DNA of 64,000 nucleotides from Candidatus Gastranaerophilales bacterium. GTDB taxonomy: Bacteria; Cyanobacteriota; Vampirovibrionia; Gastranaerophilales; Gastranaerophilaceae. The position numbers and the translations under genes were made by a program. The stretch covers positions 1 through 64,000 of the forward strand of contig CALUTP010000003.1 in the NCBI GenBank assembly GCA_944323725.1. The letters run 5' to 3'. Shown one piece after another: positions 39,409-40,211 of this stretch. How positions within the stretch are numbered: the stretch's first letter is position 1; each line of letters begins with the position of its first letter. The notes under the pieces are model-generated. The model worked only from the letters and a program-made list of their open reading frames with translations. It did no database searches and was not told the origin of the DNA.

Positions 39409-39480
39409 AGCGGAAGACGAGACTCGAACTCGCAACAACCTGCTTGGAAGGCAGGGACTCTACCTTTGAGTTACTTCCGC
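39409..39480 (-). tRNA. tRNA-Gly (anticodon TCC)
   Basis: Class I tRNA on the minus strand: acceptor GCGGAAG/CTTCCGC, anticodon stem CTGCC/GCAGG around TTCCAAG region (anticodon TCC, codons GGA/GGG), T arm with GAGTTCGAGTC, discriminator T as usual for glycine. CCA is not encoded. Confidence 0.93.
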
Positions 39481-39643
39481 TTATAACTATTCACTTGTCA
39501 GGCTGAATTTCAACCATATTTAAAACTTACTATAAAAAAAATATTTTTGCAAGTGGTTAATTTTTAAATAAATACTTCTATAGAATTAGTTATATAAAGC
39601 TAGTTAATATAAAAATCTTATTCTCAAGGAGGGTGAAAAAAGC

Positions 39644-39846
39644 TTGAAAAAGAGGTATATTATTATTGTAAGTCTATTGTATCCAGGCACTTTTTCGGGG
39701 TTGCGACAAGATTTTTTCTTTGAGCGGGTTTGGTTTAAAATACAGTAGACTTATTCCTTAAGAACTATGTACAATTTTATATATCAATGGTTTTCACGTT
39801 TGATATACTGGGGCTTATCGGAAGCGTACCGATAGGTCTTTTTCTT
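39644..39846 (+). ncRNA. Candidate structured RNA, about 200 nt
   Basis: The 449-base gap between tRNA-Gly and the parvulin gene contains three consecutive hairpins: a 13 bp stem (39669-39681 with 39741-39753, one G.U) with a 59-base loop; an 8 bp stem (39780-39787 with 39800-39807); and a terminator hairpin (39814-39821 with 39829-39836). GAAAAAGA (39646-39653) can pair with TCTTTTTC (39837-39844), closing the whole. A separate good promoter for the next gene lies after it, so this is its own transcript. A 34-codon TTG frame with a strong AAGGAGGG (39626-39633) also starts at 39644, so a leader peptide or tiny protein remains possible. It does not match 6S, SRP, tmRNA or RNase P RNA. Confidence 0.5.
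39814..39846 (+). terminator. Terminator at the end of the candidate RNA
   Basis: CTTATCGG/CCGATAGG (7 Watson-Crick pairs and one G.U, 7-base loop) followed by TCTTTTTCTT. Confidence 0.75.
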
Positions 39847-39867
39847 GTTGAACTAATTTTAATTTGG

Positions 39868-39896
39868 TTTACTTTCTTTGTGATTTTTGTTATAAT
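39868..39896 (+). promoter_or_regulatory. Promoter of the parvulin gene
   Basis: TTTACT (39868-39873), a 17-base spacer and TATAAT (39891-39896), 34 bases before the ppiC-type start, and downstream of the terminator at 39814-39846. Confidence 0.65.
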
Positions 39897-39929
39897 TCTT
39901 TTTGTTAAAGTTGAAAAGGAGTTATATTA

Positions 39930-40211
39930 ATGTCAAATGAAGTAAGAGCAAGCCATATTTTAGTTCAAACAGAAGATGAGGCTAAAAAGTTATATGATGA
40001 AATAAGTGCAGGCAAAGATTTTGCAGAAGCTGCTGCAGAAGTTTCGTTATGTCCTTCTGGTAGTAGAGGCGGCGATTTAGGGTATTTTGGACGAGGCATG
40101 ATGGTTAAGCCATTTGAGGATGCCGCATTTTCTCTTGAAACTGGCGTTGTATCTAAACCTGTTCAGACACAATTCGGCTGGCATTTAATTATGGTTACTG
40201 ATAAAAATTAA
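39930..40211 (+). CDS. Parvulin-type peptidyl-prolyl isomerase (PpiC domain)
   Basis: A 93-residue, single-domain parvulin that catalyses cis/trans isomerisation of Xaa-Pro bonds. The family core is complete: VRASHILVQTEDEAKKLYDE, FAEAAAEVSLCPSGSRGGDLGYFGRGMMVKPFEDAAF, and the final TQFGWHLIMV. There is no signal peptide, so it should be cytoplasmic, like E. coli PpiC. AAAGGAG precedes the ATG. It begins a run of same-strand genes (aminopeptidase, methyltransferase). Confidence 0.93.
   Translation: MSNEVRASHILVQTEDEAKKLYDEISAGKDFAEAAAEVSLCPSGSRGGDLGYFGRGMMVKPFEDAAFSLETGVVSKPVQTQFGWHLIMVTDKN

Follow-up and report, generated by a model that had tools for sequence, protein, structure and literature searches.

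The RNA locus

What is encoded in the interval that separates a minus-strand tRNA gene (39409-39480) from the gene for a parvulin-type isomerase (39930-40211)? We addressed this question in a window of 64,000 nucleotides, the whole stretch of DNA analysed, which belongs to a genome of 1.91 Mb from an uncultured gut bacterium of the order Gastranaerophilales. A preliminary description had proposed an autonomous RNA of about 200 nt, and with it a possible dual function as the message of a short peptide. Our comparative analysis of the sequence strongly supports a free-standing structured small RNA of about 180 nt, terminated and matching no catalogued family; this rests on covariation, on its presence throughout the family mostly as a single copy, and on a private promoter that is itself conserved. 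We infer that it is transcribed from position 39667-39669, according to the promoter spacing, to about 39843-39846. The predicted elements of the locus and of its downstream neighbour are as follows.

39572..39589, plus strand: distal operator, the palindrome ATACTTCTATAGAATTAG (consensus in the family CTAATnCTnnAGnATTAG), with its centre near -88 relative to the RNA start
39618..39638, plus strand: proximal conserved block TTATTCTCAAGGAGGGTGAAA, from column conservation and a fixed spacing to the -10 box
39633-39638, plus strand: -35-like GTGAAA, overlapped by the proximal block
39656..39661, plus strand: TATATT, the predicted -10 box of the RNA, separated from P1 by 6 nt
39668..39845, plus strand: small RNA, placed by promoter spacing, P1 position and terminator
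39668-39754, plus strand: 5' structured domain, a long hairpin, from P1/P2 covariation, folding energy and covariance model matches
39668-39681/39741-39754, plus strand: P1, 14 pairs, with compensatory changes in 13
39683-39688/39728-39733, plus strand: P2, 6 pairs, covarying
39691-39697/39704-39711, plus strand: P3, from energy and position
39698-39703, plus strand: invariant loop GGGUUG of P3, within the sequence-invariant hairpin UUUUUCG[GGGUUG]CGAyAAGA
39764..39808, plus strand: conserved 3' tail (ACTATGTACA ... TTTTCACGTTTGATATAC), whose blocks reappear as variants from genus to genus
39810..39843, plus strand: intrinsic terminator of the RNA, from a hairpin plus U-tail scan and folding
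39868..39896, plus strand: TTTACT-N17-TATAAT, a promoter for the parvulin gene alone, a neighbour outside the RNA
39930..40211, plus strand: parvulin-type peptidyl-prolyl isomerase gene, 93 aa (Pfam PF13616/PF00639), also a neighbour outside the RNA

Compensatory changes in the 5' domain

The stem first noticed at 39669-39681/39741-39753 exists, one base off: AAGTCTATTGTAT at 39670-39682 pairs with ATACAGTAGACTT at 39740-39752 to form 13 base pairs. When 39668-39755 was folded alone, the z-score was -4.2 and none of 200 shuffled sequences folded as well; distant homologues of the domain gave -6.0 and -5.2. In an alignment of 50 sequences, 97.5% of the cells of the domain were paired, as compared with at most 47% for slid controls, and double changes affected 15 pairs, 13 of them in P1 and 2 in P2. 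The covariation score reached 0.363; shuffles gave 0.199, and no slid structure exceeded 0.113. Moreover, RNAalifold recovered the same fold unaided, with double changes in 16 pairs. P1 and P2 persist in distant genera, where they are built from other letters (P2 is for example CGAAC/GUUCG or CCUGUU/GAACAG). The case of P3 is different, since its stem and loop are nearly unchanged across the 50 sequences, where covariation of A-U pairs would have been possible; its pairing is therefore unproved by covariation and rests on energy and position. When the window RNA is folded as a single sequence, the minimum-energy structure has another pairing in place of P3.

Of the elements initially described, the 13-bp stem and the terminator are borne out. 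The middle hairpin (39780-39807) is not conserved as such: its 5' arm is found in a few close relatives only, and what is conserved of its 3' arm is the sequence. The closing helix once envisaged between 39646-39653 and 39837-39844 has to be abandoned, as it uses bases upstream of the inferred start.

Promoter and operator

The predicted promoter of the RNA is its own and consists of GTGAAA, a 17-nt spacer and TATATT, preceded by the conserved palindromic operator. A -10 box that stops 6-8 nt upstream of P1 was found in 108 of the 109 relatives, and the proximal block with its GTG(A) element lies 17 nt from this box in 74 loci and 18 nt in 22. The best-scoring operator site reached the threshold in 119 of 125 loci and in 8 of 125 shuffled ones; because threshold and weights were picked once the alignment had been seen, these counts describe conservation and are no independent test. 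Most loci have the operator centred between -87 and -90, others between -73 and -76. The proximal block TTATTCTCAAGGAGGGTGAAA may represent a second, degenerate operator copy.

The 3' tail and the terminator

Between P1 and the terminator, what is conserved of the tail is its sequence and not a hairpin, and the blocks of the tail recur also where the downstream gene sits on the other strand. The tail is a possible pairing region. The arrangement of a conserved tail followed by a terminator is found in the genus of the window and in many other genera. The terminator, already recognized in the preliminary description, proved real: with scan thresholds of our own choice, a hairpin followed by a U-tail was detected in 71 of 109 relatives and in none of 109 shuffled sequences, and some loci that fail the strict scan have terminators with longer loops. 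A U-run comes right after P1 in 15 of the 109 relatives, as it does in many distant genera. In one locus (L069), part of the RNA domain (TGCGATAAGAGTTTTTCTTTAGCGGGTTTGGTTGAA) is repeated in tandem 3' of the RNA.

Distribution in Gastranaerophilaceae

BLAST searches with 39600-39870 retrieved the locus from every one of the 13 genomes of the genus, that of the window among them, and from 27 of the 59 genomes searched. At least 114 contig stretches carry the core TTTCGGGGTTGCGAYAAGA, and most of their titles read Gastranaerophilales, Melainabacteria or uncultured bacterium. With a covariance model built from 50 diverse sequences, the RNA was found in 181 of the 286 genomes from the order Gastranaerophilales, mostly as one copy each, and all the order-level matches listed fall in Gastranaerophilaceae. 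A phylum sample gave one borderline match outside this family (G428, E 0.005). According to these sequence searches, the RNA appears essentially confined to one family, across most of which it occurs. Three matches each were obtained in G169 and G250, and two in G109. Four RNA-bearing records (L047, L088, L118 and L141), titled Fusobacterium, Muribaculaceae, Brachyspira and Clostridiaceae, are probably mislabelled. The core motif was absent from the viral contigs searched, and the literature that we searched describes no small RNA in Gastranaerophilales.

A candidate shared regulon

Near-exact operator palindromes number 53 in 14 genomes, as compared with 14 for the reversed pattern. Operator sites precede a carbohydrate phosphorylase (glucan phosphorylase) gene in most genomes looked at. 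Others lie ahead of N-methylated pilin-like genes, and some genomes have a site upstream of a gene encoding Rex-type domains, which we read as Rex from its domains and sequence. The survey covered the ORFs around selected sites, mainly good matches, so the list of regulon members is partial. Tentatively, the RNA may share a regulon with the phosphorylase, pilin-like and rex-like genes. As a separate observation, made on the loci L174, L265, L266, L268, L270, L273, L278 and L280, CTAATnCTnnAGnATTAG lies about 100-130 nt upstream of the carbohydrate phosphorylase gene in many genomes and elsewhere ahead of pilin-like and Rex-like genes, which would make up an undescribed regulon. The usual Rex site is TTGTGA-N6-TCACAA. 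The operator CTAATnCTnnAGnATTAG precedes the rex-like gene, yet it differs from this canonical site.

Alternative readings of the locus

Could the locus serve the translation of a peptide, or the gene that follows? A 34-codon TTG frame beginning at 39644 and the block AAGGAGGG upstream of it do exist in the window, and a 34-residue peptide had been suggested on this basis, making the RNA a dual-function one. However, the TTG is at the same place in 5 of 109 relatives only, and the frame is broken by one-base indels in T-runs. Furthermore, AAGGAGGG lies upstream of the inferred RNA start and keeps a promoter spacing; on this sequence evidence it belongs to the RNA's own promoter, as its -35/operator region, and is no ribosome-binding site, and AAGGAGGGTGAAA, earlier taken for such a site, is the conserved GTG(A) promoter element. 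Conservation is thus the reverse of that of a frame kept alone with no covarying stems: the stems covary and the frame is lost. The peptide is barely plausible under these circumstances. A cis-acting leader, riboswitch or attenuator, of the parvulin gene would agree with the fact that this gene comes next in 88 of the 131 loci compared. Nevertheless, the terminator and the separate TTTACT-N17-TATAAT promoter, present as had been described and with its TATAAT aligned in most same-genus relatives, stand in between. The remaining loci have a different next gene, often on the strand opposite to the RNA; in these several cases the RNA is no leader. In distant genera, the RNA often stops right after P1. 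A leader function is consequently very unlikely. At L244:1998-2077, an AdoCbl-II-like riboswitch match lies directly 3' of the RNA (35.5 bits, cut-off 36.5).

A divergent housekeeping RNA (6S, SRP or Y RNA) overlooked by the models would account for a mostly single-copy, family-wide gene. The preliminary description had seen no housekeeping signature, and this impression holds. Rfam 15 gave no match at gathering over 39481-39935 and, with E-values up to 10, two weak and unrelated snoRNA matches only; none was obtained over the RNA in distant homologues either. The 6S model (RF00013) found nothing at the RNA locus, its sole match in the genome being G000:C22:175545-175728, and the bacterial small SRP RNA (RF00169) is likewise not at the locus, but at G000:C22:89928-90013. 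No Ro/TROVE domain (PF05731), expected of a Y RNA partner, was detected when 7 genomes from the family were searched, six or more of which carry the RNA. We consider a housekeeping role highly improbable. The 6S RNA of G000 scores 39 bits for an Rfam cut-off of 46.4 and has same-genus counterparts; the 6S RNAs of the family members tested fall short of this value and would escape standard annotation. A protein-binding RNA, either part of an RNP or a 6S/CsrB-like protein sponge, has better prospects, and we give it a minor but real share of the probability. Here UUUUUCG[GGGUUG]CGAyAAGA would be the protein site, presented by P1 and P2. The near-invariance of the P3 stem and loop, the core UUCGGGGUUGCGA kept in most distant genera and the fact that no Hfq was detected all point in this direction. 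Against it, there is no repeated GGA pattern as in CsrA sponges, the genome has its 6S RNA elsewhere, no TROVE/Ro protein was found for a Y-RNA reading, and the conserved tail is left unexplained.

Proposed function

The conservation of a folded core, a private promoter and a control site indicates that the locus is probably a regulatory RNA gene and not a small protein gene. The predicted promoter and intrinsic terminator, together with the non-leader position, are those of a trans-acting sRNA. Our preferred reading, held with reasonable though limited confidence, is thus a free-standing regulatory RNA that acts in trans and is switched by a transcription factor. This factor would be dimeric and shared with the glucan phosphorylase, the pilins and the rex-like gene, and would switch the RNA on or off, possibly following the energy or redox state of the cell. 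Since no Hfq was detected, a base-pairing RNA would need to act independently of it, and we propose that this RNA does so. It could pair with mRNAs, using the GGGUUG loop, the tail (UUUCAyGUUUkAUA) or both; alternatively, it could bind a protein through the invariant hairpin. We lean slightly towards base-pairing, because the tail sequence just upstream of the terminator is conserved and unpaired. In 13 same-genus genomes, exact loop complements (YGCAACCCCR) were much commoner than the reversed-pattern control. This search yielded no target, the 30 loci read having coding-like contexts and no leaders.

One may speculate further that the RNA represents an Hfq-independent class, probably old in Gastranaerophilaceae, linking the redox or energy state to pili and metabolism, with the invariant GGGUUG hairpin as its active element and a controlling factor shared with the rex-like gene and the glucan phosphorylase; this broader scenario is one to which we attach low confidence. 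Gastranaerophilales are gut relatives of cyanobacteria, and a mostly one-copy, family-wide RNA with a putative operator would offer a first handle on RNA regulation in this order. In addition, existing gut metatranscriptomes can be searched for this RNA with the covariance model.

Comparison with known systems

With 6S RNA (RF00013), the RNA described here shares a long hairpin, a copy number of mostly one and a predicted promoter of its own. However, the locus has no 6S match, and the 6S-like RNA of the genome is on contig C22. The discovery route is that of the 3161 candidate structured RNAs of human microbiomes (PMC8040213). The main text of this survey makes no mention of Melainabacteria or Gastranaerophilales; a gut member of the family could be among the 3161. 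In Bacillus and Staphylococcus, the sRNA RoxS/RsaE is repressed by the NADH sensor Rex, whose site lies just downstream of the RoxS start (PMC5419742), whereas the operator described here is upstream of the promoter. No sequence or structural relation between the two RNAs was seen or is claimed. By analogy only, both would be free-standing sRNAs under the control of a transcription factor, with a possible redox link provided in Gastranaerophilaceae by the operator at the rex-like gene.
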